From the NCBI RefSeq assembly GCF_036013745.1, contig NZ_CP107880.1, forward strand, positions 8,618,001 to 8,682,000: a stretch of 64,000 bases of DNA, read 5' to 3'. The stretch is from Streptomyces sp. NBC_00483 (GTDB lineage Bacteria > Actinomycetota > Actinomycetes > Streptomycetales > Streptomycetaceae). Positions 24,696 through 52,069 of this stretch are shown here, piece by piece (the stretch's first letter is position 1; each line of letters begins with the position of its first letter). The notes below the pieces were generated by a model. That model had not been told where the DNA came from. It searched no databases and was given only the letters and a program-made list of their open reading frames with translations. The position numbers and the translations under genes are program-made.

Positions 24696-26657
24696 ATGAT
24701 CAACGATGCCTCCAAGTCCTCCGACGTCGACGTACAGGCCCTGACCGCGCTGCTTGACGGTGAGTACGCCGAGATCCGCGATCTGGTGCGCACGAATCTG
24801 TCGACGCACGCCTCCGTTCTCGAAGAGGCCGAGGAGCTCGGCATCGATGCGTTCCGTGAGCGGGTGCGCGAGCTCACGGTCGAACTGGCGGCCACCGGCC
24901 AGACGGGGATGGGGTTCCCGAAGGAGTACGGCGGGGGCGGTGACATCGGCGCCTCGATCGCCGCGTTCGAGACACTCGCCTACGGAGATCTGTCGCTCCT
25001 GGTGAAGGTGGGGGTGCAGTTCGGCCTCTTCGGCGGCGCGATCCTGCACCTCGGCACCGAGCGGCACCACCGGGCCCATCTACCGGATCTGATCACCGGG
25101 AAGCTGATGGGCTGCTTCGCGATGACCGAGACCGGGCACGGCTCCAACGTCCAGGCGCTCGGCACCGTGGCGACGTACGACACCGCGAGCCAGGAGTTCG
25201 TGATCACCACGCACGGCGACGCCGCGCGCAAGGATTACATCGGCAATGCCGCCCGGCATGCCGAACTGGCAGTCGTCTTCGCCCAGTTGGAGGTGGCTGG
25301 CAGGTCGGAAGGGGTGCACGCGTTCGTCGTGCCGATCCGTGTCGACGGCGCGACGGCACCGGGCGTACGGATCGAGGACGCCGGCCGCAAGATGGGGCTC
25401 AACGGAGTCGACAACGGTCGCCTCTGGTTCGACGGAGTGCGGGTGCCGCGCGAGGCGCTGCTCAACCGGTTCGCCGATGTCACGCCCGACGGCGCGTACG
25501 AGAGCCCGATCGAGAACCCCGGCCGCCGTTTCTTCACCATGCTCGGAACCCTGGTCCAGGGGCGGGTCAGCGTCGGTGGCGGCGCGATCAACGCGGCCAA
25601 GGTCGCCCTGGCGATCGCCACGAAGTACGCGGTGCGCCGTCGGCAGTTCGAGGCGGCGTCGGACGGCGAGGAGCAGCTGCTGCTCGACTACGGGATGCAC
25701 CAGCGCCGCCTGCTGCCGTTGCTCGCCCGCACGTATGCCCTGCACTTCGCCCAGGATGTGGTGCGTACCCAGTTGCACGAGGTCTTCTCGGGAGACCGGG
25801 ACGACGAGCAGGCGCGGCGGGAGCTGGAGGCACGGGCCGCCGGCACGAAGGCGCTGGGCACCTGGCACGCGACACGGACGATCCAGGAGTGCCGCGAGGC
25901 GTGCGGCGGCGCCGGCTACCTCGCCGTCAATCGGTTCGCCGCGCTCAAGGCCGACAGTGACGTCTTCACCACCTTCGAGGGCGACAACCACGTCCTGCTG
26001 CAGCTCGTGGCGAAGGGGCTCCTCACGAACTACGCGCACGAGTTCGAGGACCTCGACCAGCTCGGCATGGTCCGGTTCGTGACCGGTCAGGCCGTGGAGA
26101 CGGTCATCGAGAGGACGTCGGTGCACAAGCTGCTGGAGCGCGTGCGCGACCTGCTGCCCGGCGGCGACGAGTGGGACCAGGAGGCCGGTCTGCTCGACCG
26201 GGACTACCAACTCGCCATGGTCCGTTTCCGCGAGGAGCACATGCTCGCCGGCCTGGCGCGGCGGCTCAAGCGCGGGTTGGACGAGAAGGGCGATCCCGGT
26301 GTCGTCTTCTCCCACGTACAGGACCACGTGATCTCGGTGGCCCGCGCGCACGTCGAACGCCTGGTCCTCGAGGCGTTCGTCGACAAACTGCGCACGCTGC
26401 CGGACGGCGGGGACGACGGGAACGACGACGGCAACAAGGTCGCACTGGGGTTGTTGTGCGACCTGTTCGCGCTGTCCACCATCGAGTCCGACCGGGCGTG
26501 GTTCATGGAGCACGGCCGGCTGACCGTCCAGCGTTCCAAGGCGATCAGCCGTGAGATCAACAACCTCTGCCGAAAGGTCAGGCCGCTCGCGGTCGATCTC
26601 GTCGACGCATGGGGCATCCCGTCGGCGATGCTGCGCTCTCCGGACCTGGTGGGCTGA
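24696..26657 (+). CDS. Acyl-CoA oxidase/dehydrogenase family enzyme
   Basis: A 653-residue flavoenzyme. It has the acyl-CoA dehydrogenase core with the FAD/substrate signature CFAMTETGHGSNVQALGT (about 139-156). The FAD-binding segment REACGGAGYLAVNRFAALKAD and the catalytic Glu in TTFEGDNHVLLQLVAKGLL (about 427-445) follow. The extra C-terminal helical domain of about 200 residues makes it as long as peroxisomal acyl-CoA oxidases rather than 380-residue dehydrogenases. The reaction would be the first step of fatty acid beta-oxidation, passing electrons to oxygen or a flavoprotein. It is monocistronic. Confidence 0.88.
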   Translation: MINDASKSSDVDVQALTALLDGEYAEIRDLVRTNLSTHASVLEEAEELGIDAFRERVRELTVELAATGQTGMGFPKEYGGGGDIGASIAAFETLAYGDLSLLVKVGVQFGLFGGAILHLGTERHHRAHLPDLITGKLMGCFAMTETGHGSNVQALGTVATYDTASQEFVITTHGDAARKDYIGNAARHAELAVVFAQLEVAGRSEGVHAFVVPIRVDGATAPGVRIEDAGRKMGLNGVDNGRLWFDGVRVPREALLNRFADVTPDGAYESPIENPGRRFFTMLGTLVQGRVSVGGGAINAAKVALAIATKYAVRRRQFEAASDGEEQLLLDYGMHQRRLLPLLARTYALHFAQDVVRTQLHEVFSGDRDDEQARRELEARAAGTKALGTWHATRTIQECREACGGAGYLAVNRFAALKADSDVFTTFEGDNHVLLQLVAKGLLTNYAHEFEDLDQLGMVRFVTGQAVETVIERTSVHKLLERVRDLLPGGDEWDQEAGLLDRDYQLAMVRFREEHMLAGLARRLKRGLDEKGDPGVVFSHVQDHVISVARAHVERLVLEAFVDKLRTLPDGGDDGNDDGNKVALGLLCDLFALSTIESDRAWFMEHGRLTVQRSKAISREINNLCRKVRPLAVDLVDAWGIPSAMLRSPDLVG

Positions 26658-26672
26658 CCCACCAGGCTGTGC

Positions 26673-27188
26673 TCAGGGCGCGGTGTCGTGTTCGACTTCG
26701 AGTTCGCGCTTGAGGTTGTGCAGCGTCTTCTCGATGTTGCGTTGTTGGAACGTGGCGAACGTCTTCCCGGAGGTGGCGACACGGTCGAAGGCGTTGGCCA
26801 CGAATGTCGGCCAGGCGCGCCGGTCGTCGGTCCAGGTCTCCGTCACGCGGGTGCCGCTGCCGACCTCCTCGAACCGGTACTCCCAGGTGGCGATGGGGCC
26901 GCGCAGGAACGGCCGGCTGAGCCCGATCGCATGCACGCGGAACGCGAAGCGGTGACCCGGCTCGGCCGCTGTGACCGTGCATCGGGTCGTCCACCGGAAC
27001 GCTCCGCGCTTGTTGCGGCCGACGAACGTGGTGCCGGGGCCGGCCGGCCCCGCGGGTGACTCGTCCGTCGTGCCGAGGTTCTCGGGGCTCCAACGCCCCA
27101 TGTCCGCGGGGCGGCTGACGGCCTCGTACGCGGCGTCCGGCGACACGGCGATGGTGATGCTGTCGCTCACGGTGAAGACGCGGGCCAC
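26673..27188 (-). CDS. SRPBCC-family (polyketide cyclase/dehydrase-like) protein
   Basis: A 171-residue START-fold protein: VSDSITIAVSPDAAYEAVSR opens the domain and GRWSPENLG and TWEYRFEEVGSGTRVTETW are typical later strands. GTG 27188 is chosen because GGAGG lies six bases upstream; the longer frame starting at 27227 adds 13 unlikely residues. Members bind hydrophobic ligands in a deep cavity. It converges with the acyl-CoA oxidase gene with only 15 bases between the stops. Function unknown. Confidence 0.82.
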   Translation of the reverse strand: MARVFTVSDSITIAVSPDAAYEAVSRPADMGRWSPENLGTTDESPAGPAGPGTTFVGRNKRGAFRWTTRCTVTAAEPGHRFAFRVHAIGLSRPFLRGPIATWEYRFEEVGSGTRVTETWTDDRRAWPTFVANAFDRVATSGKTFATFQQRNIEKTLHNLKRELEVEHDTAP

Positions 27189-27268
27189 GGGGTTCCTCCA
27201 ACTGACGGCATTCGGCTTCCGACTCACGACGCGAACTTACTGCTGAGTAGGAGCATCGCATGTCGAGG

Positions 27269-27293
27269 GCATACCGAGCAGGAAGGGGGGTAC
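27269..27293 (+). promoter_or_regulatory. Candidate SigB/SigF-type promoter of the dps gene
   Basis: GCAT (27269-27272), 15 bases, then GGGTAC (27288-27293) fits the GNNT-N14/16-GGGTA(C/T) consensus of Streptomyces SigB-type promoters. It lies 33 bases before the Dps start. Confidence 0.4.
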
Positions 27294-27326
27294 GGGGTCG
27301 GGACAATCCCGTACGAGACAGGAGAT

Positions 27327-27890
27327 ATGACGTTGACCTCCGAGGCTGCCCCGAAGTACACCGTGCCCGGCATCACGGCCAAGGATGCCGGGACCATGAT
27401 CTCGCTGCTCCAGCAGCGTCTGCATGCGCTGAACGACCTTCATCTGACGCTGAAGCACGTGCACTGGAACGTCGTGGGCCCGCATTTCATCGCCGTGCAC
27501 GAAATGCTCGACCCGCAGGTCGACCGCGTCCGGGCCATGGCCGATGACGTCGCCGAGCGCATGGCCACCCTGGGCGGGGTCGCCCATGGCACGCCGGGCG
27601 CGCTGGTCGCGGAGCGCTCGTGGCAGGACTACAGCGTGGGCCGGGCCGATGCCATCGCCCATCTCGGTGCGCTCGATCTCGTCTACACCGGTGTGATCGG
27701 GGACCTGCGTGCCGCGGTCAAGGAGGTGGGAGCCGTCGACGCGGCCACCGAGGACCTGCTGATCGGGCAGCTGCGGGACCTGGAACAGTTCCAGTGGTTC
27801 GTGCGAGCCCATCTGGAGACCTCCGGCGGCACCCTCGCCACGGCCGACGCCTCCACCGAACTGGACGCGGCGCGTTCCAGCGCACGGTGA
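27327..27890 (+). CDS. dps: Dps-family DNA-binding ferritin
   Basis: A 187-residue mini-ferritin that oxidises and stores iron and protects DNA. The ferroxidase His and Asp/Glu ligands are in LKHVHWNVVGPHF and AVHEMLDPQVDRVRAMADD, the standard Dps arrangement. Helices C and D follow, with RDLEQFQWFVRAHLE near the end. It has a short N-terminal and a flexible C-terminal tail (about 20 residues), which in actinobacterial Dps proteins help DNA binding and assembly. GGAGAT precedes the ATG. Its place beside an anti-sigma ATPase and SigB-type sigma gene fits stress induction. Confidence 0.93.
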   Translation: MTLTSEAAPKYTVPGITAKDAGTMISLLQQRLHALNDLHLTLKHVHWNVVGPHFIAVHEMLDPQVDRVRAMADDVAERMATLGGVAHGTPGALVAERSWQDYSVGRADAIAHLGALDLVYTGVIGDLRAAVKEVGAVDAATEDLLIGQLRDLEQFQWFVRAHLETSGGTLATADASTELDAARSSAR

Positions 27891-28000
27891 CCGACACCGC
27901 GCCGACCGAGACAGGGCAGGTGCGTAACCCGGGCAACGTGTGGGGCCCTCCGGGTCGGGCAGACGAATACGGACCGATCCGATGAGAGCGGTGACCGCAC

Positions 28001-28444
28001 ATGTACGACGCCACAGCCGACGGCGTGATGACCGTTGTGGAAGCGGTGGGAACGGTGGAAACGGCACCAGAGCCGGAGTGCGAGGACATCAGCTGCGCGG
28101 ACGCCCGAATGCAGGTCCGCTCGGTACTGAAGGAGGCGTGCGGCGGCCTGTCCCTGGCCCGCGCGCAGCAACTGCGTGACGACGCGCTGCTCGTGGTGAG
28201 CGAGTTGATCACGAACGCGCTGCTGCACGCGGGAGCCGTGACCGGCTTCCGCGCCCGACTGGCCGGGAACGAGCTGCAATTGCGGGTCAGTGATGCCAGC
28301 CCTGAGGTGCCGAAGGACCTGTCGCCGGTGCTCGGCCGCCAGGGCGGGTACGGCTGGACGATCGTCCAGCGCCTGTGCTCGCGCGTGCAGGTCGACAGGG
28401 AGCCGGGTGGGAAGACGGTCACTGCTGTCCTGGCTCTGGCGTGA
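28001..28444 (+). CDS. Anti-sigma factor-type ATP-binding protein (RsbW/HATPase_c_2)
   Basis: A 147-residue protein with a GHKL fold: the N-box reads LLVVSELITNALLHAG, and the glycine segment GGYGWTIVQRLCSRVQV closes the ATP site. Such proteins bind and inhibit a SigB-type sigma factor and phosphorylate a STAS antagonist. It precedes a SigB-type sigma gene by 117 bases, suggesting that they are partners, although the STAS partner is missing here. Streptomyces has many such kinases with other roles, so the pairing is inference. Confidence 0.85.
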   Translation: MYDATADGVMTVVEAVGTVETAPEPECEDISCADARMQVRSVLKEACGGLSLARAQQLRDDALLVVSELITNALLHAGAVTGFRARLAGNELQLRVSDASPEVPKDLSPVLGRQGGYGWTIVQRLCSRVQVDREPGGKTVTAVLALA

Positions 28445-28475
28445 ACGCCGTGTGACAGGACACATCTGACCGTAT

Positions 28476-28500
28476 GTATACGCGCATGACATGGGGGTAA
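28476..28500 (+). promoter_or_regulatory. Candidate autoregulatory SigB-type promoter of the sigma gene
   Basis: GTAT (28476-28479), 15 bases, then GGGTAA (28495-28500), 62 bases before the sigma factor start. It resembles the GNNT-N15-GGGTA consensus, though the last -10 base is A. Confidence 0.4.
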
Positions 28501-28561
28501 CCGCAGGCGTACGAGGATGGATGCCCGAAGCTCACACGACGAGAGACAGGGGACAACGGCA

Positions 28562-29431
28562 ATGACCACCGCGGCAGTTCACCAGCAGACGCACATCACG
28601 GCCGACGAGGCCGAGGTGAATCTGATCGAGCGCGCCTATGCCGATCCTTCCTCTGTTCGCCCGAAGGACGCCCGAGAGATCGGGCGGCACTTCTTCGACC
28701 GCCTCGCTCGGCTGGAGGAGGGCACGCACGAGTACAGCTACGTGCGCAACGTGCTGATCGAGATGAATCTCTCTCTGGTGCGGTACGCGGCCGCCAGGTT
28801 CAGGCACCGTGGGCCCGAGGAGATGGAGGACATCGTCCAGGTCGGCACGATCGGCCTGATCAAGGCGATCGACCGGTTCGAGCTGACCCGCGAGGTCGAG
28901 TTCACGTCCTTCGCCGTGCCCTACATCGTCGGTGAGATCAAGCGGTTCTTCCGTGACACGTCCTGGGCCGTGCATGTGCCGCGCCGTCTGCAGGAGGCGC
29001 GGGTCGAACTGTCCAAGGCGAAGGAGGAGTTGAGCACCCGGCTGGGACGCTCGCCCTCGACGGCGGAGCTGGCGGAGCTGATGCAGCTCGACGTGGCGGA
29101 GGTGGCCGAGGCGCAGAAGGCGTCCAACGGCTACAACAGCGTCTCCCTGGACGCGGCGGTGAACGGGGCCGACGACGAGTCCGACACGATGCTTGCCGAG
29201 TTCATCGGCATCGATGAGGACCGCTTCGAGCTCGTGGAGAACTTCCACTCCCTCGCCCCGCTGATCGTGGACCTGAACGAGCGGGACCGGCGCCTGATCC
29301 ATCTCCGCTTCGTCGAGGAGCGCACCCAGCAGGAGATCGCCGACGAGCTCGGCTGCTCCCAGATGCATGTGTCCCGCCTGATCTCGAAGGTGGTCGCCCG
29401 GCTCCGCGAGGGGCTGATGGCGGCGGAGTAA
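28562..29431 (+). CDS. SigB/SigF/SigG-family RNA polymerase sigma factor
   Basis: A 289-residue group 3 sigma factor. Region 2 is clear: EMEDIVQVGTIGLIKAIDRF and FTSFAVPYIVGEIKRFFRD, the -10 recognition surface of the SigB/SpoIIAC group. Region 3 starts at VHVPRRLQEARVEL, and region 4 carries RFVEERTQQEIADELGCSQM, the -35 helix-turn-helix. ATG 28562 is used; ATG 28517 would add 15 residues. It is probably controlled by partner switching (the ATPase at 28001 and the phosphatase at 30251). It is 60-70% similar by eye to the sigma factor at 50633. Confidence 0.92.
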   Translation: MTTAAVHQQTHITADEAEVNLIERAYADPSSVRPKDAREIGRHFFDRLARLEEGTHEYSYVRNVLIEMNLSLVRYAAARFRHRGPEEMEDIVQVGTIGLIKAIDRFELTREVEFTSFAVPYIVGEIKRFFRDTSWAVHVPRRLQEARVELSKAKEELSTRLGRSPSTAELAELMQLDVAEVAEAQKASNGYNSVSLDAAVNGADDESDTMLAEFIGIDEDRFELVENFHSLAPLIVDLNERDRRLIHLRFVEERTQQEIADELGCSQMHVSRLISKVVARLREGLMAAE

Positions 29432-29486
29432 AGCCGTCTGGATGCCTTCTGGATGCCCACTGGATGCCTTCTGTAGAGAATTGAGT

Positions 29487-29519
29487 GCGCTGCGCCGCCC
29501 ATTCCGGGCGGCGCAGCGC
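29487..29519 (+). terminator. Hairpin terminator of the sigma factor gene
   Basis: A perfect 14-bp inverted repeat (GCGCTGCGCCGCCC at 29487-29500 and its complement at 29506-29519) with a 5-base loop, 56 bases after the sigma stop. Short GGATGCC(T/C)(T/A)CTG direct repeats lie between stop and stem. Confidence 0.85.
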
Positions 29520-29558
29520 CATGTTCACGGTGAAGTCGTCCGCGATCCCCGAAACGAG

Positions 29559-29608
29559 CGCGCCCGTGGTGGGCCGCTCCATGAAAGGGGCGGACCACCA
29601 CGGGCGCG
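29559..29608. terminator. Second hairpin between convergent sigma and CsbD genes
   Basis: A 19-bp inverted repeat with one mismatch (29559-29577 and 29590-29608) and a 12-base loop, 35 bases beyond the CsbD stop on the minus strand, so it probably ends that gene. Confidence 0.75.
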
Positions 29609-29643
29609 AGCGCGGTGAATTACGGGCGCGAGCGTGGTGAATT
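29600..29643. repeat. Tandem 22-bp repeat at the 3' end of the CsbD gene
   Basis: ACGGGCGCGAGCGCGGTGAATT (two blocks, 29600-29621 and 29622-29643) with one mismatch. It overlaps the terminator arm and touches the CsbD stop codon; probably slippage. Confidence 0.75.
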
Positions 29644-29816
29644 CAGCGCTTGCCGATGTCCTTGGTCTTTTCCTTGGCCTGGCGGGCGTCGCCCTTCATT
29701 TGCTGGGCGCGGCCTTCTGCTGTGAGGCGTTCGTTGCCCACGGCGCGTCCGGCGGCTTCCTTGACGGCGCCAGTGACCTGCTCGGTCTTTGCCTTGGCCT
29801 TCTCGCCGGCGGTCAT
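29643..29816 (-). CDS. CsbD-family stress protein (57 aa)
   Basis: A short gene read on the minus strand: it begins MTAGEKAKAKTEQVTGAVKE, continues with AAGRAVGNERLTAEGRAQQM and ends KTKDIGKR, the standard CsbD pattern (k-x-G-x-vKe-x-G-x-x-x-gn-x-x-l-x-a-e-G-x-x-q). CsbD proteins are small, charged and induced by the general stress sigma factor in Bacillus; their molecular role is unknown. AAGGAG lies 11 bases before the ATG. It converges with the SigB-type sigma gene, which fits a shared stress regulon, although I see no GGGTA promoter immediately upstream. Confidence 0.88.
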   Translation of the reverse strand: MTAGEKAKAKTEQVTGAVKEAAGRAVGNERLTAEGRAQQMKGDARQAKEKTKDIGKR

Positions 29817-30004
29817 TTCCGCTCACACTCCTTGGCATCGACATCATGTGCTGCCCTCCGATTGGCCACTCTGCAGCGAGGCAAACATCCTCGAGGTCAG
29901 CCCGCGGCGAGCGGCGGCCGCAAGGGCCGGTGGTACCGATGGTGATGCGAGCCTGAACAAGGCGCCGAGCGGCGCGCGGCATGGGCAGTGGCGCGCGCTG
30001 AAGG

Positions 30005-30036
30005 GGTGGGCCCGGCCTGGGACGGCCGGGCCCACC
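30005..30036. terminator. Perfect hairpin in the CsbD/phosphatase intergenic region
   Basis: GGTGGGCCCGGCC (30005-30017) pairs with 30024-30036 around a 6-base loop. No plus-strand gene ends before it, so it may shield the phosphatase gene from upstream transcription or be a leader structure. Confidence 0.6.
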
Positions 30037-30222
30037 TCGCGTGCGTGAGATGAAGTGGGCTTCTCGAGAGAAAGTGCGGGCTCTGTCGCCGATTTCGGTT
30101 TGTCTCCGCCGTCTTGGGTACCCGGCGCGTGCTCTTGACGGCTCGGCAGTTTTTGTCGAGTGGCGGGGCCGTGGGTGCGCAAGGTCGGACGTGGTTGTCA
30201 AGGGTTCCAACGAAGGGTGGTG

Positions 30223-30245
30223 GGGTCCCGCACTGTGCGGGACCC
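30223..30245 (+). promoter_or_regulatory. Hairpin abutting the phosphatase start codon
   Basis: GGGTCCCGCA (30223-30232) pairs perfectly with 30236-30245 around the loop CTG. The stem ends two bases before GTG 30248 and five before ATG 30251. The only purine-rich ribosome site, GAAGGG (30212-30217), lies on the other side of the stem. Confidence 0.55.
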
Positions 30246-30250
30246 GCGTG

Positions 30251-31924
30251 ATGAAGTCCCCAACGGAGCCGGTGAGTTCCCGAAGCGCCAGACCTGCTGC
30301 CGGCCTCGGCGCGACGTACCCGTCGGTCACGGTGGACGGGGCGGGCCGCGTGCTGTCCTGCAGCGGCGAGGCCGTCGCCCTCCTGGAGGGTGTGCGGACC
30401 GGTGCGTTGCTCGCGGACGTGGCGCCTTCCTGGCTGGCCGAAGCGCACGCCGACATCGCCGGGGCCGCCGCGGACGGCGGAGCGGGTCCGTCCGCGGCGG
30501 TGAGAGGCCGCATCGGCGAGGCGACGGTGGACGCGTTCCCGAGCCGCGCGGCCGACGGCGGAGTGTCGTGGCGACTGGTCAACGACCGTGAACTGCGCAA
30601 CGTACAAGCGGAGTTGGCCCGCGAGAGGGCCCGCTCGCAAGTCCTGCGGGAGGTGTCCGGCGAGCTTCTGGCATCGCTGAACGTGGACCGATGCATGGAA
30701 GCGACCGCCCGCATGGCCGCGGCGCATCTCGCGGACGCGGCGGTCGTCGTCGGCGTCCGGTCCGGCCGCATGTATCCCGTCACCCGCTGCTCCACCGGCG
30801 GGCCGGTGGAGCAGGAGAAGGTCGAGCTGGATCCGCACAGCATGCCGGGCCTCGCGGAGGCGCTGGCGGGCTTCCCTCCCGTGCCCTCGCGATGGATCGA
30901 CCCGGGCCTCGTCCCGGACTGGGTGGTCCCGGAGCAGTTCACGGCCGGGCGGGCGCAGATCGGCTCCATCGTGGTGGTGCCGCTGCCCGGGCACGGTCTG
31001 CCGGCCGGGGCCATCGTGCTGCTGCGGCAGAGCCGGGAAGCGGTGTTCAGCGAATCCGAGGAGGCCCTCGTCCGGCTCTTCGCCGCCCGAGCGGGCGTGG
31101 CCCTGTCCTCGGCGCGCGTCTATGCCGAGCAGGTCCACATCACGGACGTACTGATGCGGGAGCTGCTGCCCCCGGCCCTGGAGAGCGTGCACGGCATCGA
31201 CTACTCCGGCCGCTACCGGGCGGCGTCGGCCACCGATCGGATCGGTGGCGACTTCTACGACGTGCATCCCGCCGACAGCGACGACGCGGAGACCTTCGTG
31301 GTCCTGGGCGACGTGTGCGGCAAGGGGCTCGAGGCCGCCGTACTGACCGGGAAGATCCGCAACACGATCGAGGCGCTGCTGCCGTTCGCCGCCGACCACC
31401 TCAAGCTGCTCGCGCTGCTCAACAACGCGCTGCTGTCCTCGCGCCATTCACGGTTCGTGACACTCGCCCTGGCCTCCGTCCGGCGTGATGGAAGCCGCGT
31501 GCGGCTGCGGGTCTCCAGCGCCGGACACCCCGCCCCGCTGATCCTGCGTGCCGACGGACGGGTGGAAGAGGTGGACACCAAGGGCGTGCTGATAGGAGTC
31601 CTCCCCACGGACCAAGTCACGATCACCACCGCGGCCGTAGACCTCGCACCGGGGGAGACCTGTTTCCTCTACTCCGACGGCGTCACCGAAGCCCGCGGCG
31701 GCCCGCTCGGCGATGTGATGTTCGGCGAACAGCGCCTGCACAACACGCTGTCCGAGTGCGCGGGCCTGCCCGCCCAAGCGGTCACCGAACGGCTCCAGAT
31801 GGTCACCGCGCAATGGGTCGGCGACGGGCCGCACGACGACACGGCCGTACTGGCCATCACCGCGCCGCCCACCAGCCACCACGTGGCCGTGGACGGACAC
31901 ACCCGAGGCAGATTCGCTTCATGA
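30251..31924 (+). CDS. GAF-domain PP2C (SpoIIE-type) phosphatase
   Basis: A 557-residue soluble phosphatase. An N-terminal PAS-like segment of about 110 residues leads through a coiled region (ELRNVQAELARERARSQVLRE) into a GAF domain (about 140-290). The C-terminal SpoIIE/PP2C domain has its metal ligands in DRIGGDFYDV, VLGDVCGKG, YSDGVTEAR and HDDTAVLAI. ATG 30251 (or GTG 30248) is chosen because codon bias begins there. The enzyme would dephosphorylate a STAS antagonist and so release a SigB-type sigma factor. Its stop overlaps the cobalamin-binding protein gene (ATGA), suggesting that protein supplies the signal. Confidence 0.88.
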   Translation: MKSPTEPVSSRSARPAAGLGATYPSVTVDGAGRVLSCSGEAVALLEGVRTGALLADVAPSWLAEAHADIAGAAADGGAGPSAAVRGRIGEATVDAFPSRAADGGVSWRLVNDRELRNVQAELARERARSQVLREVSGELLASLNVDRCMEATARMAAAHLADAAVVVGVRSGRMYPVTRCSTGGPVEQEKVELDPHSMPGLAEALAGFPPVPSRWIDPGLVPDWVVPEQFTAGRAQIGSIVVVPLPGHGLPAGAIVLLRQSREAVFSESEEALVRLFAARAGVALSSARVYAEQVHITDVLMRELLPPALESVHGIDYSGRYRAASATDRIGGDFYDVHPADSDDAETFVVLGDVCGKGLEAAVLTGKIRNTIEALLPFAADHLKLLALLNNALLSSRHSRFVTLALASVRRDGSRVRLRVSSAGHPAPLILRADGRVEEVDTKGVLIGVLPTDQVTITTAAVDLAPGETCFLYSDGVTEARGGPLGDVMFGEQRLHNTLSECAGLPAQAVTERLQMVTAQWVGDGPHDDTAVLAITAPPTSHHVAVDGHTRGRFAS

Positions 31925-33144
31925 CCACATCAGACGTCACCACACACGCCACATCAGATGTCACCACACGCACCACATCAGGCGTCACCACACACACCGC
32001 ATCACACGCCACGTCAGACATCACCGCACACACCGCATCAGGAGTCACCGCACACAGGGCGGCGCCCAGTCACGACGAACTCCGCGAGCAGTTGTGGCGC
32101 GCGGCGGTCGACTGCGACGTGATCCATGCCGTGGCCCTCGTACGGTATGCCGTGGGCGACGGCACTTCCTCGCAGGTGCTGGCCGCGGCGGAGCGGACGC
32201 TGCTGCAGCTGATCGCGCCGGTGCAGGAACGCGTCGGCATCCAATGGGCGGCCAACGCCATCACGGTGGCGCAGGAGCACGCGGCGACCGCCATCAACGA
32301 ACGCTGCGTCTCTGCCGTCGCCGATCTGGCCGCTCCCGCACTGGCCGACGCGGCGCCGCTGGGCCGGGTGACGGTGGCCTGCGTGGACGGTGAATGGCAC
32401 GCCCTGCCCGCCCGCCTGGTCGCCGAGGTGCTGCGCCTGCGCGGCTGGCACGTGGACTACTTGGGCGCACAGGTCCCCACCGAGCACCTCATGGCCCACC
32501 TCCACCAACGGCCGACCGACGCCGTACTGCTGTCCTCGTCGATCTCCGCGCATCTGCCCACCGCCCACACGGCGATCAGCGCCTGCCAGGCCTCCGGCGT
32601 CCCCGTCATGGCCGGCGGCGCCGCGTTCGGCCCCCAAGGCCGTTACGCCCACCGCATGCAGGCCGCCTGGGCCCCGGACGCCCTCGGTGCCCACACCCTG
32701 CTGAAGCAGGGCCTCGAACGGCCCACCGCGGACGCGGCCCGCCTGCCCGACCTGGACCTGCCGCATCTGAACGACCAGGAGTACACGCTAGTAAGGCAGA
32801 CGAAACGGCAGCTGGTCACCCAGACCCTCACCGACATCGAGGACGCGTTCCCTCCCATGCGCTCCTACACCGAGTACCAACTCGAGCGCACCGCCGAGGA
32901 CATCGACCACATCGTCACTCACCTGGCCACCGCCGTGTACGTCGACGACGCCGACCTGTTCACCGTCTTCATCACGTGGACCGCCGACATCCTCCGGGCC
33001 CGGAACGTCCCGCCGCAGAGCCTGCTGCCCGCCCTCGACTCCCTGCGGCGCCAACTGAACGACTTTCCGCGCGCCACCGGCATCCTCACCGCCGCGCGTA
33101 CCGCCCTTGCCGTTCCCGCACCCGCTCCCGGACAGCCCGCATGA
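31921..33144 (+). CDS. Cobalamin-binding photosensor-like protein without DNA-binding domain
   Basis: A 407-residue protein translationally coupled to the PP2C phosphatase. The first 45 residues are a Thr/Ser/His-rich tandem repeat (units like TSDVTTHT). Next comes the four-helix cap of B12 photoreceptors with the motif W-x9-EH (QWAANAITVAQEHAATAIN). A Rossmann B12-binding domain follows (VTVACVDGEWHALPARLVAE), whose E-x-H supplies the lower axial histidine. These are the CarH/LitR features that sense light through adenosylcobalamin. A MerR DNA-binding domain is absent, and about 110 extra helical residues follow at the C terminus. I infer that it relays light or B12 status to the phosphatase. 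Confidence 0.8.
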   Translation: MTTSDVTTHATSDVTTRTTSGVTTHTASHATSDITAHTASGVTAHRAAPSHDELREQLWRAAVDCDVIHAVALVRYAVGDGTSSQVLAAAERTLLQLIAPVQERVGIQWAANAITVAQEHAATAINERCVSAVADLAAPALADAAPLGRVTVACVDGEWHALPARLVAEVLRLRGWHVDYLGAQVPTEHLMAHLHQRPTDAVLLSSSISAHLPTAHTAISACQASGVPVMAGGAAFGPQGRYAHRMQAAWAPDALGAHTLLKQGLERPTADAARLPDLDLPHLNDQEYTLVRQTKRQLVTQTLTDIEDAFPPMRSYTEYQLERTAEDIDHIVTHLATAVYVDDADLFTVFITWTADILRARNVPPQSLLPALDSLRRQLNDFPRATGILTAARTALAVPAPAPGQPA

Positions 33145-33162
33145 CGGGGTCCTCGGCGCCCC

Positions 33163-33306
33163 TCAGCGGCGGCGCAGCCGAGCGAGCCATCCGCGAGCCT
33201 GGGCCTGCCTGCGGGGGTCCGATGCCGTCCGGCGCGCCCTCGCGATCGTCCGCCTGCCCTGCGGGCTGCGGCTGTACTGCTTGATCCGGTTGAGAATGCC
33301 GGCCAT
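33163..33306 (-). CDS. Small basic protein (47 aa)
   Basis: A short minus-strand gene encoding MAGILNRIKQYSRSPQGRRT and then a run of Arg/Ala-rich helix to ARLRRR. GGAGG lies five bases before the ATG, and a SigB-like promoter (33374-33398) is about 70 bases upstream. Similar 45-50 residue, very basic peptides are common beside stress genes in Streptomyces, with no known function. Charge suggests nucleic acid or membrane binding. Confidence 0.65.
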   Translation of the reverse strand: MAGILNRIKQYSRSPQGRRTIARARRTASDPRRQAQARGWLARLRRR

Positions 33307-33373
33307 GAGTCCTCCATGATGTCTGTCGTTCTTCGACAAGAGCAGCGTCACTGCATCCTCGCTCTCTCTGCTG

Positions 33374-33398
33374 CTACCCGGGAAGCGGTACAGAACAC
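33374..33398 (-). promoter_or_regulatory. Candidate SigB-type promoter of the small basic protein gene
   Basis: On the minus strand GTGT (33398-33395), 15 bases, then GGGTAG (33379-33374). It fits the GNNT-N15-GGGTA pattern seen upstream of the dps and sigma genes. Confidence 0.4.
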
Positions 33399-33466
33399 AA
33401 AAGCGGGCACTCGGGAGTCAATGACGTCAACGACGTCAACTACACCGACGAGGAACAGGACTTCAC

Positions 33467-33646
33467 ATGTTCGCCATTGCCGCCGCCGTGCTGTTCTTCC
33501 TGGCATTTCTGATCAACGCCGCCGACATCTCGACGAACGACGTCTTCACCTCCGTGAACGTCATGCTCCTCGGACTCACCGTTCTGGCACTCCATCTGGC
33601 GGGAGCCGGAGGCTGGGCGAGCAGCAGGACGTCGCGTCGACGCTGA
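33467..33646 (+). CDS. Small membrane protein (59 aa)
   Basis: A short gene encoding two hydrophobic helices: FAIAAAVLFFLAFLINAA and, after a polar loop (DISTNDVFTSVN), VMLLGLTVLALHLAGAGGW. It ends in a basic tail SSRTSRRR. GAGGAACAGGA precedes the ATG. This layout is that of small Streptomyces inner-membrane proteins found in stress regions. It is divergent from the basic 47-residue gene and has no known role. Confidence 0.7.
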   Translation: MFAIAAAVLFFLAFLINAADISTNDVFTSVNVMLLGLTVLALHLAGAGGWASSRTSRRR

Positions 33647-33718
33647 ACTCGGGGGCTCATGACCCGGGGGCTCATGAAATGAGTCGCGTGGTGCGGCGGG
33701 TGCCGGAATACTGCCTCG

Positions 33719-34756
33719 GTGACTGCTGCCTCGGTGACCGCTACCGCGCTGCCCGAACTCCTTCGCCCCCGTGCCCTGAAGCCCGGAGATCTGGTCGTTG
33801 TCGCGTCGCTGTCCGGGCCGCTGCAGGCCCAGTACGAGCCCGACCTCGAGCAGGCGGTGGTCGTACTTGAGCGGATGGGATTCCGTGTGCGTCGGGCGCC
33901 GCTCCTCGAAGCGGGGCGGCACCATTGGTGGAGTGCGGCAACACCGGCGGAAACCGCCGGGGAATTCAACGCACTTCTGCGTGATCCCGAGGTGCGCGCC
34001 ATCATCGCGCATGACGGCGGCAGTTCAGCACTCGGCTACCTCGACCTGATCGACGTCGAGGCGATCGTCGCCGACCCCAAGCCGATCCTCGGTTACAGCG
34101 ACATCTCACTGCTGCACCTCGTGCTCTTCGCGCGCACGGGGCTGGTCGGCTTCCACGCCGACGTGGCCACGCCTGGACTCGGCGGGCACTGGCAGTCCGC
34201 GCCCGCGGCACGCAGGGCGGAACTCGAGAAGCTCTACTCGACGTTGCTGACCGGCGAGGAGGCGATCGGTGCGCTGCCGACCACCCCGTCGTGGGAGTGC
34301 TGGCGTGCCGGTCGCGCCGAGGGACGACTGATCGGCGGGCTGCTCAATCGCATCGTGCTGGCACAGGCAACGCGTTACGCGCTGCCGCTCGAGCGGTTCG
34401 ACGGCGCGGTGCTGTTCTGGGAGGAGATGGGCTGCCAGGCGGCCCATGTGTGGAGCTACCTACAGGTGCTGCGGCACAGCGGCATCCTCGACCGCATCTC
34501 CGGCATGGTCGTGGGAATCCCGTGCGCGATCGACGGACTCGACTCGCCCGACGCCTCCCCGTCCCTGCCCGAGATGGTCCTCGACGTCCTCGGTGACCGC
34601 GACATCCCTGTCCTGGGCAACGTCGAGTTCGGACACGCCGGCCCGAACCTCCCGATGCCCGTCGGTACTCGCGTCGCCCTCGACGCGCAGCAGCGGACCT
34701 TGTCACTGCTCGAACCTGCGGTACGTCCGCTCAAAGTGACCGGCCCGGACGACTGA
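33719..34756 (+). CDS. S66-family LD-carboxypeptidase (MccF/LdcA type)
   Basis: A 345-residue serine peptidase. ALKPGDLVVVASLSGPLQ is the usual opening, the nucleophile Ser lies in PILGYSDISLLHL and AIIAHDGGSSALGYLD precedes it; the Glu and His of the triad are in FWEEMG and NVEFGHAGPN. Family members cut the LD-peptide bond of recycled murein or inactivate peptide-nucleotide antibiotics such as microcin C. GTG 33719 or GTG 33734 are possible starts, within a small direct repeat (TGCCTCGGTGAC), and neither has a clear ribosome site. It is a single gene. Confidence 0.85.
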   Translation: MTAASVTATALPELLRPRALKPGDLVVVASLSGPLQAQYEPDLEQAVVVLERMGFRVRRAPLLEAGRHHWWSAATPAETAGEFNALLRDPEVRAIIAHDGGSSALGYLDLIDVEAIVADPKPILGYSDISLLHLVLFARTGLVGFHADVATPGLGGHWQSAPAARRAELEKLYSTLLTGEEAIGALPTTPSWECWRAGRAEGRLIGGLLNRIVLAQATRYALPLERFDGAVLFWEEMGCQAAHVWSYLQVLRHSGILDRISGMVVGIPCAIDGLDSPDASPSLPEMVLDVLGDRDIPVLGNVEFGHAGPNLPMPVGTRVALDAQQRTLSLLEPAVRPLKVTGPDD

Positions 34757-34790
34757 GCAACACGAACAGTGCATTTCTTTATGGCACCTG

Positions 34791-34964
34791 CGGATCCTGC
34801 GTTACTCGTCGGGCTTCAGTCAGCAAGGCGTCATCCGGCGCGAACGCAGCCTCACCGACCGGCGTGCCATCCAGATCGTCCTCACCGACCAGGGCCGGGA
34901 CCTGGTGGTGGAGGCCCGCGAGCGATGGCGGGGGCGATGGGAGCGGGCACTGGGCGATGAGCCG
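34791..34964 (+). pseudogene. MarR-family regulator remnant (C-terminal part)
   Basis: The frame from 34791 reads RILRYSSGFSQQGVIRRERS and then LTDRRAIQIVLTDQGRDLVV. The DRRA-x-x-x-x-LT-x-x-G pattern is the wing of MarR winged-helix domains, followed by the C-terminal dimer helix. The recognition helix and all N-terminal residues are missing and there is no start. About 58 codons survive, running into a PPOX fragment in another frame. Confidence 0.6.
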
Positions 34965-35127
34965 GGGCGTGGAGATCCGCGGTCATGCGGAAGTCCTCGC
35001 CGTGGACGACCCGCCCGGCGCTCCGGGGATGACGGCCCAGGAGATCATCCGCATCCACCCCGCGCGGATCATCAGCTGGCACATCGACCCAGCCATGCCC
35101 GACGGCCGTTCCATCGACATCGGTTGA
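34957..35127 (+). pseudogene. PPOX/F420-dependent flavin oxidoreductase remnant (C-terminal part)
   Basis: From ATG 34957 the sequence MSRGVEIRGHAEVLAVDDPP leads to EIIRIHPARIISWHID. The R-G-x-x-I-x-G-x-A-E-V and R-I-x-P-x-R-I-x-S-W patterns match the last third of pyridoxamine-oxidase-like (split-barrel) proteins. The first two thirds are missing. It overlaps the MarR fragment by eight bases, so two broken genes were joined. A possible third fragment on the minus strand lies at about 35130-35230 but cannot be named. Confidence 0.6.
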
Positions 35128-35248
35128 GGACGCCGCGCAGATCGTCGGCGAGGGCGGCGTCGAAGGCGTCGGCGGTGACGCCGGGCAAGTGCGCGCGGTG
35201 GCCGTCGCGTGTTGTGCGAGGCGAAGTGCCGCGTGCGGATCTCCTCGC

Positions 35249-36181
35249 TCAGTTGAAGGGTGGCGCCGAGCCGGTCCGCATCTCACCCGCGTTCGGCGGC
35301 TCGGCCCCCGCCCGCGAGCAGGTGATCGCCGCCGCGCGGGCGGCGAAGGCGAGCACTTCCCTCCAGGTGCGGCCCGGGGCCGAGGCGAGGGCCCGCGCCG
35401 AGAGGAGGTCCCGCTCGGACAGCGCGTACAGCAGCGCGGCGTTCACGGTGTCGCCCGCGCCGATCGTGTCCACGACGTCGACGCGTTCGCCGGGCACGGA
35501 GAACTCCCGGCCGTCCCGGGTGAAGACCGTCAGGCCGTCGCCGCCACGGGTGATCACGACGGCGGCCGGACCTGCCGCGAGCCACCCCTCGACATCGGGC
35601 CCCAGCCAGTCCGCGTCCTCCTCGCTCAGCTTCAGCAGGGAGACATACGGCAGCCAGCTCTTGAAACGGGCCCGGTAGGCGTCCGCGTCCGGGATGAGGC
35701 CGGCCCTGATGTTCGGGTCGAGGGCGATGAAGATCCCGCGCCCCGCCTCGCGCCGCATCAGCTCCTCGTACGCGCTCGCCCCCGGTTCGAGGATGAGCGA
35801 GCACGTCCCGAGCGACAACGCCCTTGTATCGGCCCCCAGTTCACCCGGCAGCTCGAAGAGCCGGTCCGCGCTGCCCTCGACGTAGAAGCTGAACGCGGCA
35901 GAGCCGCCCGCGTCGATCGAGGCGAGGGCGAGCGTGGTCGGCTCGGGGCCACGCTGGATGAGTCCGGTGCCCACCCGCTCGGCGCGCAGCCGCTCGACGA
36001 GCGCGGCGCCGAACGCGTCCGTCGAGATCCGCGAGCAGAAGGAGACCCCCGCCCCGAGCCGCCCGAGCGCGATGGCCGTGTTGTACGGGCCACCACCGCG
36101 CGCGGGCAGCAGGGACGCGGTCACGTCACCATGGGCCTGCGGCACCAGGTCGATCAATGCCTCACCGGCGACGACGATCAC
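35249..36181 (-). CDS. PfkB-family sugar kinase, probable fructokinase
   Basis: A 310-residue kinase. It begins VVAGEALIDLVPQ and has the N-terminal PfkB signature around GGGPYNTAIALGRLG and the C-terminal signature VDVVDTIGAGDTVNAALL, with the catalytic Asp in GAGD. GTG 36181 has AAAGGA upstream at normal spacing. It is read in the same direction as the sucrose-type permease gene, 90 bases downstream of it. The context of three GH32 enzymes makes fructose the likely substrate; ribose or other ketoses are possible by family alone. Confidence 0.88.
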   Translation of the reverse strand: MIVVAGEALIDLVPQAHGDVTASLLPARGGGPYNTAIALGRLGAGVSFCSRISTDAFGAALVERLRAERVGTGLIQRGPEPTTLALASIDAGGSAAFSFYVEGSADRLFELPGELGADTRALSLGTCSLILEPGASAYEELMRREAGRGIFIALDPNIRAGLIPDADAYRARFKSWLPYVSLLKLSEEDADWLGPDVEGWLAAGPAAVVITRGGDGLTVFTRDGREFSVPGERVDVVDTIGAGDTVNAALLYALSERDLLSARALASAPGRTWREVLAFAARAAAITCSRAGAEPPNAGEMRTGSAPPFN

Positions 36182-49876: not shown

Positions 49877-50314
49877 TCACGTCACCCTATCGGCGCCCGG
49901 CTTCCGTACGGTCGGCGGTTTACTGGAAGGCGGTGGCCAGGCGGGGCGATGTTCCGGGGGCAGGGCTGTGAGGGCCTGGCTCACGGTGGAGTAGGAGGGC
50001 AGCAGTTCGCTGCTGCCGGTTTGGGCGAGCAGATCGACCAGGCGGCGCCCGGAGCCGGCCAGCAGGAGCATCCCCTCGCGGCGCTCCAGCAGCCAGCGGG
50101 CGGCGAGCAGGCAGTTGAGGCCGCGTGAGTCACAGAACGTGAGCGCCGTGACGTCCAGCACCAGGTGCCGGTGCCCGGCCAGAACCCGGGACCCGATGGT
50201 GCGGAGGAAGAACTGCTCGCAGTCCTGGTCGAGTTCACCGCGCACCCGCAACACCGCGCAGTGCTCACAGTGCGTCAGGTCGGTGACGGACAGGCGGTTG
50301 GTCTGCGTGGACAT
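49877..50314 (-). CDS. STAS-domain anti-sigma factor antagonist
   Basis: A 145-residue RsbV/SpoIIAA-like protein. The phosphorylatable Ser sits in LDVTALTFCDSRGLNCLL at about residue 63, and VLRVRGELDQDCEQFF is the first STAS strand pair. An unusual HCEHC cluster lies near residue 13. A Pro-rich C-terminal tail of about 30 residues follows. ATG 50314 has AAAGGGA upstream. It is divergent from the SigB-type sigma gene at 50633 and would free that factor from its anti-sigma kinase, probably the protein at 51632. Confidence 0.88.
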   Translation of the reverse strand: MSTQTNRLSVTDLTHCEHCAVLRVRGELDQDCEQFFLRTIGSRVLAGHRHLVLDVTALTFCDSRGLNCLLAARWLLERREGMLLLAGSGRRLVDLLAQTGSSELLPSYSTVSQALTALPPEHRPAWPPPSSKPPTVRKPGADRVT

Positions 50315-50547
50315 CGCGGTTCCCTTTGGCCGTGTGGTCACGATGCGTGAGATGCGGCCGGCGCGGCCTCATCGTACGGAGTCTTCTTCCGGTTGCCCCG
50401 GTGGCTTCTTCCTACGCGCCGGAGTTCGCCAACAGGCGGTATTTTCCGTCTAGTTGGGTGCTGCAGGCTGTTGCGGTCGGTCGCTGTCCGCGGAAATGGG
50501 GGATACCGCCGCGGGCTTCGCGCATGTTACGGAGCGTCAAATTGCTG

Positions 50548-50572
50548 GTGTGCTCCGGAAGATTGCGGGTAT
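50548..50572 (+). promoter_or_regulatory. Candidate SigB-type promoter of the second sigma gene
   Basis: GTGT (50548-50551), 15 bases, then GGGTAT (50567-50572), 60 bases before the sigma factor start. It is the best match in the window to the SigB-type consensus and suggests autoregulation. Confidence 0.5.
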
Positions 50573-50632
50573 GAGGCGTGCACGCCGCACTCCCGACCGG
50601 GGGAGTGCCTTCGGATTGAGGGAGCGACGACG

Positions 50633-51538
50633 ATGCCCCAGGCCTCCAGCCATCCGGCACAGCGGACCGATGCACCCGAGCGACATATGGCCGGCCTCGG
50701 GAGCGCCGCCCCGTCGGCCGACGCCCCGGGCCTTCCGTCACTCTCCGACACCGACACCGACACCGATATGGACACGCTCGCGCCGGCGGACATCCGTGGC
50801 CTGTCGAAGTCGCTGTTCGCCCGGCTCGGCGAGGTGGAGGAGGGCACCCATGAGTACGCCTACGCGCGCAACACCCTCATCGAGCTCAACCTCAACCTCG
50901 TGCACTACGCCGCACGGCGCCTGCGTGCTCACGGCGATTCCTACGAGGATGTCGTGCAGGTCGGCACGATCGGTCTGATCAAGGCCATCGACCGGTTCGA
51001 TCTGCAGCGCGGCGTGGAATTCACGAGCTTCGCCCTGCCCACCGTCATGGGTGAGATCAAGCGCTTCTTCCGCGACACCACCTGGGCCGTCCATGTCCCC
51101 CGGCGCCTGAAGGAACTCAGCCTGCACCTCGACCGGGCGAAGACCCTCCTCGAGCAGGTCGACGGGCGCGCCCCCACCGTCGCCGAACTCGCCGCCCACC
51201 TCGGACTGGACGAGCACGAGGTCGCCGAAGGGCTGAAGGCGACCAATGGCTGCACCGCTGCCTCGCTGGACCGATCGGTGGACGCCGGCGAGCCCGACGA
51301 CACTCTGGCCGCCCACATCGGGTGCCACGACCCGGAGTTGGCCAAGGCCGAGAACCTTCAGGCTCTCAAGCCCCTGATCGCCGCCCTCGAGTCCCGGGAC
51401 CGAGAGCTCCTCGCGCTGCGGTTCGTCGACGAGCTGACGCAGGCGGAGATCGGACGCGAACTGGGCGTCTCGCAGATGCAGGTCTCCCGCCGCCTCACCC
51501 GTGTCCTGGACCGGCTCCGGGTAAAGCTCAGCGTGTAG
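50633..51538 (+). CDS. SigB/SigF-family RNA polymerase sigma factor
   Basis: A 301-residue group 3 sigma factor. An N-terminal extension of about 45 residues contains an acidic Asp-Thr run (DTDTDTDMDT). Region 2 has SYEDVVQVGTIGLIKAIDRF and FTSFALPTVMGEIKRFFRD; region 3 starts at VHVPRRLKELSLHL and region 4 has RFVDELTQAEIGRELGVSQM. ATG 50633 follows GAGGGAGCGA. It is paralogous to the factor at 28562. The surrounding STAS antagonist, anti-sigma kinase and GAF-ANTAR gene form a full partner-switching set. Confidence 0.92.
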   Translation: MPQASSHPAQRTDAPERHMAGLGSAAPSADAPGLPSLSDTDTDTDMDTLAPADIRGLSKSLFARLGEVEEGTHEYAYARNTLIELNLNLVHYAARRLRAHGDSYEDVVQVGTIGLIKAIDRFDLQRGVEFTSFALPTVMGEIKRFFRDTTWAVHVPRRLKELSLHLDRAKTLLEQVDGRAPTVAELAAHLGLDEHEVAEGLKATNGCTAASLDRSVDAGEPDDTLAAHIGCHDPELAKAENLQALKPLIAALESRDRELLALRFVDELTQAEIGRELGVSQMQVSRRLTRVLDRLRVKLSV

Positions 51539-51572
51539 GAAGCGGCCGGCGGGCCCTCGGGAGGATCGGGAT

Positions 51573-51623
51573 CCGTGGAGGCCCTGGGGAGCGGAGTCAC
51601 TCCGCTCCCCAGGGCCTCCACGG
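51573..51623. terminator. 23-bp perfect hairpin between convergent genes
   Basis: 51573-51595 and 51601-51623 are exact inverted repeats around a 5-base loop. It is the longest perfect stem in the window and ends both the sigma gene and the minus-strand anti-sigma gene. Confidence 0.9.
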
Positions 51624-51631
51624 CTGTGCGG

Positions 51632-52069
51632 CTACTCGCTGCTGCGGGCGCTGCTTCGGGGCAAGGTCGCTTGGATCGTCTTGCCGCTGGGGCCGGCGGT
51701 CACCGTGACCGACCGGGCCAGGTGGCGGACCATCGGCCAGCCGAAGCCACCGGTGCCGTCCGACATGTCGGGGGATCGTTCGTGGGGCGGTCGCCGATCG
51801 GCGTCGCTCACCGCGATCACGATGCTGTCCGCTCGGGCCTGCAGTTGCAGGGAGCAGCGGCTGCCGCGCGCGTGGCGGACGGTGTTGGTGACGAGCTCGG
51901 AGACGACGAGCTCGACACTGGCGGCGTCCTGCTCGTCGACTGACGGGTGCAGTCGGTCCAGAAAGTCGCGTGCCGTCAGCCGAGCCTGGGCTGCTGCTTC
52001 CGGTCGCTTGCGCAGTGCCACTCGTTCGTTGGCGCTGCTGTCTACTGTGTGTACCTGCTGCGTGGGCAC
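51632..52069 (-). CDS. Anti-sigma factor-type ATP-binding protein (RsbW-like)
   Basis: A 145-residue GHKL ATPase: the N-box is VELVVSELVTNTVRHARG, and the glycine segment GGFGWPMVRHLARSVTV lies near residue 110. A GTG start at 52069 follows AAGGAGGG. It converges with the SigB-type sigma gene and is the natural inhibitor and STAS kinase of this island. A GAF-ANTAR gene follows upstream on the same strand, 36 bases apart, so the two are probably co-transcribed. Confidence 0.88.
   Translation of the reverse strand: MPTQQVHTVDSSANERVALRKRPEAAAQARLTARDFLDRLHPSVDEQDAASVELVVSELVTNTVRHARGSRCSLQLQARADSIVIAVSDADRRPPHERSPDMSDGTGGFGWPMVRHLARSVTVTAGPSGKTIQATLPRSSARSSE

Follow-up and report, generated by a model that had tools for sequence, protein, structure and literature searches.

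Photocobilins are photoreceptors that carry adenosylcobalamin (AdoCbl) together with a bilin, and they include the closest described relatives of one product of the gene pair treated here, a PP2C-type phosphatase gene and an overlapping, predicted photocobilin gene on the 10.24-Mb chromosome of Streptomyces sp. NBC_00483. The pair lies in a stretch of 64,000 nucleotides (NZ_CP107880.1, positions 8,618,001 to 8,682,000; hereafter, the window). SasPcob from Saccharothrix syringae (structures 8J2W and 8J2X) is a standalone protein with the same domain order as the window photocobilin, and light-driven cleavage of the Co-C bond with a change in quaternary arrangement has been shown for the published photocobilins (PMC10979010). 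The structure of standalone photocobilins is known, and their function is called less clear in the same article. The window copy differs from SasPcob in its repeat-rich N-terminus and in having no STAS gene; the conservation of the gene order and the STAS third gene of the family are shown here. AbDPcob (8J2Y), a photocobilin-diguanylate cyclase, has the same sensory core, and its photocobilin controls the enzyme, also when added in trans; however, its output is GGDEF instead of PP2C, and the bilin Asp is replaced by His. The MerR-B12 repressors CarH and LitR have the B12 module, the cap motif and the His ligand in common with the window protein, which differs in lacking a MerR domain, in carrying an extra globin and in having a phosphatase as its proposed output.

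On the output side, the window phosphatase can be likened to RsbU and SpoIIE of Bacillus, PP2C-type phosphatases that act on STAS proteins, although its proposed input is a separate photocobilin and not RsbT, and no STAS gene stands beside it. The STAS substrates of SpoIIE and RsbU bind kinase/anti-sigma factors (PMC11418112), and the corresponding step in our proposal is therefore standard biochemistry. Light also reaches SigB control through YtvA and the stressosome (PMC4844311), as proposed here, but YtvA is a LOV flavin receptor for blue light within the stressosome, neither a B12/bilin protein nor a direct partner of a phosphatase.

From the predicted proteins and their conserved neighbourhoods, we consider it likely that the window pair is a light-gated phosphatase module that would feed the release of a SigB-type sigma factor. 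The features of the pair are the following.

30251..31924, + strand: GAF-SpoIIE (PP2C-type) phosphatase of 557 amino acids (Pfam SpoIIE, E 1.9e-40; GAF, 26.8 bits, cut-off 22.4)
Residues 334, 354, 476, 529 and 530 of the 30251..31924 product, + strand: Asp residues of the PP2C motifs, read on the product
31921..31924, + strand: ATGA stop/start overlap of the phosphatase and photocobilin genes, read in the sequence
31921..33144, + strand: predicted photocobilin (AdoCbl and bilin photoreceptor) of 407 amino acids (SasPcob match and eight key residues)
31924..32056, + strand: Thr-rich N-terminal extension with 24/60-nt tandem repeats (TRF and alignment)
32080..32316, + strand: four-helix B12 cap with W109-x9-E119-H120 (PF02607, residues 54-132)
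32362..32637, + strand: Rossmann B12-binding domain with E158-x-H160 and H189 (PF02310, residues 148-239)
32743..33114 (limits approximate), + strand: C-terminal globin-like bilin domain with D327 and W353 (SasPcob alignment to residue 398)
33141..33284, + strand: 47-codon open reading frame that starts inside the photocobilin stop, at the position of the relatives' STAS gene (no Pfam match)

The initial annotation had presented the product of 31921-33144 as a CarH/LitR-like B12 receptor with a W-x9-EH cap and an E-x-H ligand, without a MerR domain, and joined by an ATGA overlap to a GAF-SpoIIE phosphatase. These readings were reproduced: W109, E119, H120, E158 and H160 are present (the ligand motif being E158-W-H160), Pfam found B12-binding_2 and B12-binding domains and no MerR domain in the product, and both the overlap and the GAF and SpoIIE domains were recovered. 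What had been overlooked is the C-terminal bilin globin, with which the receptor becomes specifically a photocobilin. In a search against solved structures, SasPcob matched residues 56-398 (E 6e-76) and CarH structures matched residues 91-257 only (E 3e-9 to 6e-8). In the alignment, SasPcob W61, E71, H72, E106 and H108 correspond to W109, E119, H120, E158 and H160, its H137, D270 and W296 correspond to H189, D327 and W353, and from about residue 275 onward the window protein lines up with the photocobilin globin domain that binds bilin. The SasPcob equivalents of W109, E119 and H120 touch the photolabile adenosyl group, and the E-x-H motif provides the lower cobalt ligand (PMC10979010). The signature of the light-responsive type, GxxW, EH, GxxH and GxxxP (PMC11796333), is found by eye at G106-W109, E119-H120, G157-H160 and G182-P186; the motifs of a CarH-type B12 module (W-x9/10-EH and E/DxH) are present, and D327 and W353 occupy the bilin-contact positions, as far as sequence tells. 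Because the SasPcob residues align and the four-motif light signature is complete, the protein is a photocobilin as judged by each sequence feature tested. It probably reads biliverdin as well as B12, and the genome has one match to haem oxygenase, a source of biliverdin. Membership of CarH/LitR itself was rejected (no MerR domain by Pfam; NCBIfam CarH, 54 bits, cut-off 400).

Some sources label relatives of this protein as the methanogenic corrinoid protein MtbC1, which would make it the partner of a corrinoid methyltransferase and not a sensor. That identity was rejected, the NCBIfam MtbC score (23 bits) being below the cut-off of 350, and we regard such a role as very improbable: the light-type W-x9-EH motif and the bilin globin are present, and there is no methyltransferase among the neighbour clusters run through Pfam, one carotenoid-side cluster outside that run resembling one by eye. 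The window photocobilin is 99% identical to that of Streptomyces sp. NBC_01016, and its Thr-rich repeat N-terminus is missing from six aligned relatives. The genome has two photocobilin matches; the second, 64% identical and directly 3' of a phosphatase, forms a paralogous pair (L034) that had escaped the initial annotation, as had the STAS third gene of most relatives.

The link with the phosphatase was then followed through several genome sets. At E 1e-30, photocobilin matches occur in 75 of 199 Streptomyces genomes; across the class, 65 of 394 genomes have one. Regions were fetched for 59 of the 86 other places matched in Streptomyces, and in all 60 regions, the window included, the photocobilin gene is preceded by a phosphatase gene on the same strand (L070 and L080 are damaged). 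Among the best 80 of 516 loci found in GTDB species genomes, which are the named loci, a phosphatase is present at 78, in some cases in pieces; it is missing from L136 and reduced to a fragment in L146. Once genes had been called and photocobilins alike at 92% or more had been removed, a non-redundant set of 118 loci including the window was left, of which 115 have a same-strand phosphatase at most two genes upstream (directly upstream in 114). All 55 regions from other actinomycete genera were fetched, and 43 of the 53 that remained after leaving out L258 and L260 (no photocobilin gene called) have a same-strand phosphatase within two genes upstream. Since 115 of 118 loci share the phosphatase although the window genome holds just 32 SpoIIE matches in its 10.24 Mb, the pairing goes beyond chance. 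The reciprocal survey of the same 199 Streptomyces genomes (phosphatase threshold, E 1e-70) found a close phosphatase in 69, of which 68 also have a photocobilin (exception, G111); the seven photocobilin genomes below the phosphatase threshold (L070, L072, L075, L077, L079, L080 and L082) have a distant or damaged phosphatase upstream. The window phosphatase belongs to the PP2C/SpoIIE family by its SpoIIE domain and PP2C Asp motifs, and the five Asp residues, which we take to be catalytic, are kept in all 153 directly upstream phosphatases scoring above 200 bits. The 4-bp ATGA overlap recurs in the relatives L035, L113, L114, L115 and L116. At L239 and L240, two tandem photocobilin genes stand between one phosphatase gene and one STAS gene.

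In most relatives, the operon has a third gene. A STAS gene lies directly downstream of the photocobilin at 84 of 118 loci by clustering and at 85 by a profile; the profile was built from STAS genes near photocobilins, and the independent count is that of the clustering. The STAS identity was confirmed by Pfam on single cluster representatives. In 88 of 104 cases, the STAS start codon overlaps the end of the photocobilin gene by 4 bp, and the Ser that is presumably phosphorylated, judging from SpoIIAA/RsbV, is kept in 101 of the 104 adjacent STAS proteins. Outside Streptomyces, the order phosphatase-photocobilin-STAS occurs at 19 of the 53 loci, and STAS-HATPase-phosphatase-photocobilin at five. 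Three-gene operons were seen in Streptomyces, Streptacidiphilus and Mycobacterium/Mycolicibacterium; the phosphatase-photocobilin pair extends further, to Nocardia and Amycolatopsis. Of five phosphatase places without a photocobilin match nearby, four were examined (G167:C77, with a partial match, was left out). L311 is a decayed operon, with an open phosphatase frame, remains of the photocobilin gene at 3748-4144 and a STAS remnant of 56 aa. At L309, L310 and L312 the STAS gene is directly 3' of the phosphatase and no photocobilin relic was found, which fits a phosphatase and STAS protein that can stand as a pair by themselves, the photocobilin being an added regulator.

Around the window pair, the initial annotation had noted a sigma factor gene, an anti-sigma ATPase gene, dps and csbD, and all four were recovered by their families (TIGR02980, PF13581, PF00210 and PF05532).

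27327..27890, + strand: Dps-type ferritin, a possible stress-regulon member (PF00210; NCBIfam Dps, 112.8 bits, just below the cut-off of 114)
28001..28444, + strand: HATPase_c_2 protein, a probable anti-sigma kinase (PF13581, E 2.7e-10)
28517..29431 (the start may be 28562), + strand: SigB/SigF/SigG-family sigma factor (TIGR02980, 282.7 bits, cut-off 234)
29643..29816, - strand: csbD, a stress-response gene (PF05532, E 1.5e-14)

An HATPase anti-sigma gene and a SigB-type sigma gene, as expected of partner switching, are thus nearby (28001-28444 and 28517-29431). The photocobilin tree places the window in a starred set of 15 rows, seven of which are the paralogue's own set. The remaining eight rows do not form a clade of their own in this tree; seven of them have a SigB-type sigma gene at a distance of up to about 8 kb (exception, L114). 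The orders are phosphatase-photocobilin-STAS-sigma in L035, phosphatase-photocobilin-STAS-STAS-HATPase-HATPase-sigma in L113, and sigma-STAS-HATPase-phosphatase-photocobilin-STAS-HATPase in L116 and L124; L263, from another family, has HATPase-sigma-STAS-HATPase-phosphatase-photocobilin-STAS. The window sigma factor shares one starred tree set with the photocobilin-linked sigma factors of L113, L112 and L035, and for this reason the sigma neighbour seems meaningful at this locus. A protein 64% identical to the window HATPase adjoins the sigma gene in L113. In one frame elsewhere in the window genome (L313:4522-5793; G000:C1:8828521-8829792), a STAS domain and a sigma factor of SigB type are joined; the sigma part is near the photocobilin-linked sigma factors in the tree, and Gly replaces the phospho-Ser by eye. 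A STAS domain is absent from all of the 120 proteins listed among 7820 database matches.

The following path is proposed. The AdoCbl of the photocobilin would be carried on H160 and its adenosyl group would sit at W109, E119 and H120, and D327 and W353 would probably seat biliverdin. Green light, or red light by way of biliverdin, would break the Co-C bond and, as we infer, alter the quaternary arrangement. The photocobilin would then alter the activity of the co-translated GAF-PP2C phosphatase in trans; this step is suggested because the pairing is conserved and because a published photocobilin affects a separate diguanylate cyclase domain in vitro. The phosphatase would dephosphorylate a STAS anti-anti-sigma factor, which would bind the HATPase anti-sigma factor and so free the SigB-type sigma factor, as the operon content and the known biochemistry of SpoIIE/RsbU suggest. 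The STAS protein is encoded directly downstream in most relatives; in the window genome, the phosphatase would act on one encoded elsewhere, and the sigma factor at 28517-29431 would be the likeliest end of the path. Partner switching is the best-supported output of the pair, given the conserved gene order, the sigma, STAS and ATPase genes that are lined up around it in close relatives, and the phosphatase-STAS pairs without a photocobilin.

Several findings weigh against this proposal. Ten of the 53 photocobilins outside Streptomyces have no upstream phosphatase, and in the three of these ten loci that were run through Pfam (L267, L268 and L271) the upstream gene carries GGDEF; pairing with PP2C is therefore not obligatory, and two outputs at least exist within the family. 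Just 13 of 118 loci have a SigB-type sigma gene at most five genes away, and a sigma gene was not seen in the fetched 7-8 kb around any of the seven paralogue-set loci. Carotenoid genes lie within five genes at eight of 118 loci, and six of these eight belong to one seven-row clade, so they represent few independent events. In the window itself, no STAS gene was found 3' of the photocobilin, the ATGA start being kept and leading into the 47-codon frame without a Pfam match, and the genome has no close orthologue of the L035 STAS protein (best match, 33% identity, E 1.9e-8). As to the sigma count, it exceeds a rough background from the 14 SigB-type genes of the genome, in a test that assumes 9000 genes and independent loci. 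An HATPase gene occurs within five genes at 49 of 118 loci, a figure that has no background rate and is not used as support. The sigma neighbour named by the initial annotation is accordingly a feature of the window's nearest relatives and not of the family, and its idea of SigB-type partner switching is borne out by the conserved order and the sigma/STAS/ATPase runs, with the reservation that the STAS gene is gone from the window and a sigma gene is near few loci.

The chromophore residues bear on a different account, in which the protein is a cobalamin-status sensor that reports AdoCbl occupancy to the phosphatase, light being incidental. The equivalents of W109 and E119-H120 are kept in 117 of 118 rows, the remaining row being a gap. 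Conservation is lower at the bilin positions, with D327 kept in 111 rows and W353 in 106 of 118, and this variation occurs with the phosphatase remaining linked, so the pairing is independent of the bilin pocket, as a status sensor would have it. A CbiZ gene for cobinamide salvage, moreover, lies two genes upstream at six of 118 loci (L042, L049, L052, L160, L165 and L173; the cluster was called by Pfam on L165 only), and AdoCbl binding alone reduces enzyme activity in the published cyclase fusion (PMC10979010). We nevertheless judge a status sensor to be quite unlikely: the residues that contact the adenosyl group are those kept almost throughout, the bilin residues are retained in most rows, and carotenoid genes adjoin some loci, with the clade bias just given. 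At five of the six CbiZ loci (exception, L052), carotenoid-cluster genes start within two genes downstream.

The missing STAS gene raises another possibility, that the window module is decaying or uncoupled, either a relic or recruited to a non-sigma pathway. The photocobilin tree joins L035, L112 and the window, and across these the STAS gene is intact (L035), recognisable for residues 49-137 of 139 (L112) and gone (window); tblastn of the 104 STAS proteins on the 47-codon frame gave short chance-level matches only, among the matches listed. The genome has 16 STAS matches, none adjoining the window pair, so that STAS beside the phosphatase, a usual element of partner switching, is absent here. 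This series, the lack of a close STAS protein in the genome, the paralogous pair L034 in its seven-row set, in which no row has an adjacent STAS gene, and the existence of the decayed operon L311 would all suit decay. Both window genes are intact, however, with the chromophore residues and the PP2C Asp residues present, the whole seven-row set retains the pair without STAS, and the linked sigma factor is still there; on balance, decay seems unlikely. On the predicted gene content, the STAS gene must have been lost in the window lineage, and the substrate must be a STAS protein encoded elsewhere, or else the output has been lost. The light-gated module preferred here is therefore described as working like the input of a partner switch and not as a complete one. 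Perhaps the STAS-sigma fusion mentioned above receives the signal in this lineage.

Other elements around the pair were considered as well. A perfect 23-bp dyad lies at 30223-30245, five bases 5' of the phosphatase ATG. As a conserved operator it was rejected, an exact copy being limited, among the 80 named loci, to L110, the 99% relative; any dyad of at least 9 bp occurs in the tested region at seven of 112 loci, the window included, and on account of this rarity the dyad was dropped as a general feature. No Rfam match to a riboswitch was found in window positions 26000-36000, and a promoter and terminator scan of 29430-33800 gave signals not above those of shuffled sequence. A second SigB-type cluster lies at 49877-52069 of the window, with STAS at 49877-50314 (- strand), sigma at 50687-51538 (+ strand) and HATPase at 51632-52069 (- strand).

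The initial annotation had taken its design as one not known to be described, which holds only in part. Photocobilins are published, and one sentence based on a network analysis in Saccharothrix already names SpoIIE, STAS and PP2C phosphatases as possible interaction partners of SasPcob (PMC10979010); among the literature matches listed, a tie of photocobilins to SpoIIE/STAS appears in that article only. The earlier interpretation is thus mostly right in direction and not new in kind. The photocobilin family and its structures are known already; what is added here is that the window protein is recognised as a photocobilin, the conserved three-gene order with its reciprocal support, the tie to a sigma factor among the window's nearest relatives, and the STAS loss in the window. 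A 2022 paper on photoglobin reportedly links it to B12 domains and signalling genes, and PP2C neighbours may already be among those it lists.

A near-invariant partner gene, together with a gene for the classical STAS substrate, gives standalone photocobilins a concrete target and pathway that can be tested directly. The broader proposal, a widespread actinobacterial green/red switch running from photocobilin through PP2C to a SigB-type sigma factor and rewired to an unlinked STAS protein in the window lineage, is put forward tentatively, its chances being somewhat below even. If the proposal is true, a trans-acting, light-controlled PP2C phosphatase would be usable as a tool, and in many actinomycetes the general-stress sigma factors would receive green and red light as an input, beside the known CarH/LitR repression route.

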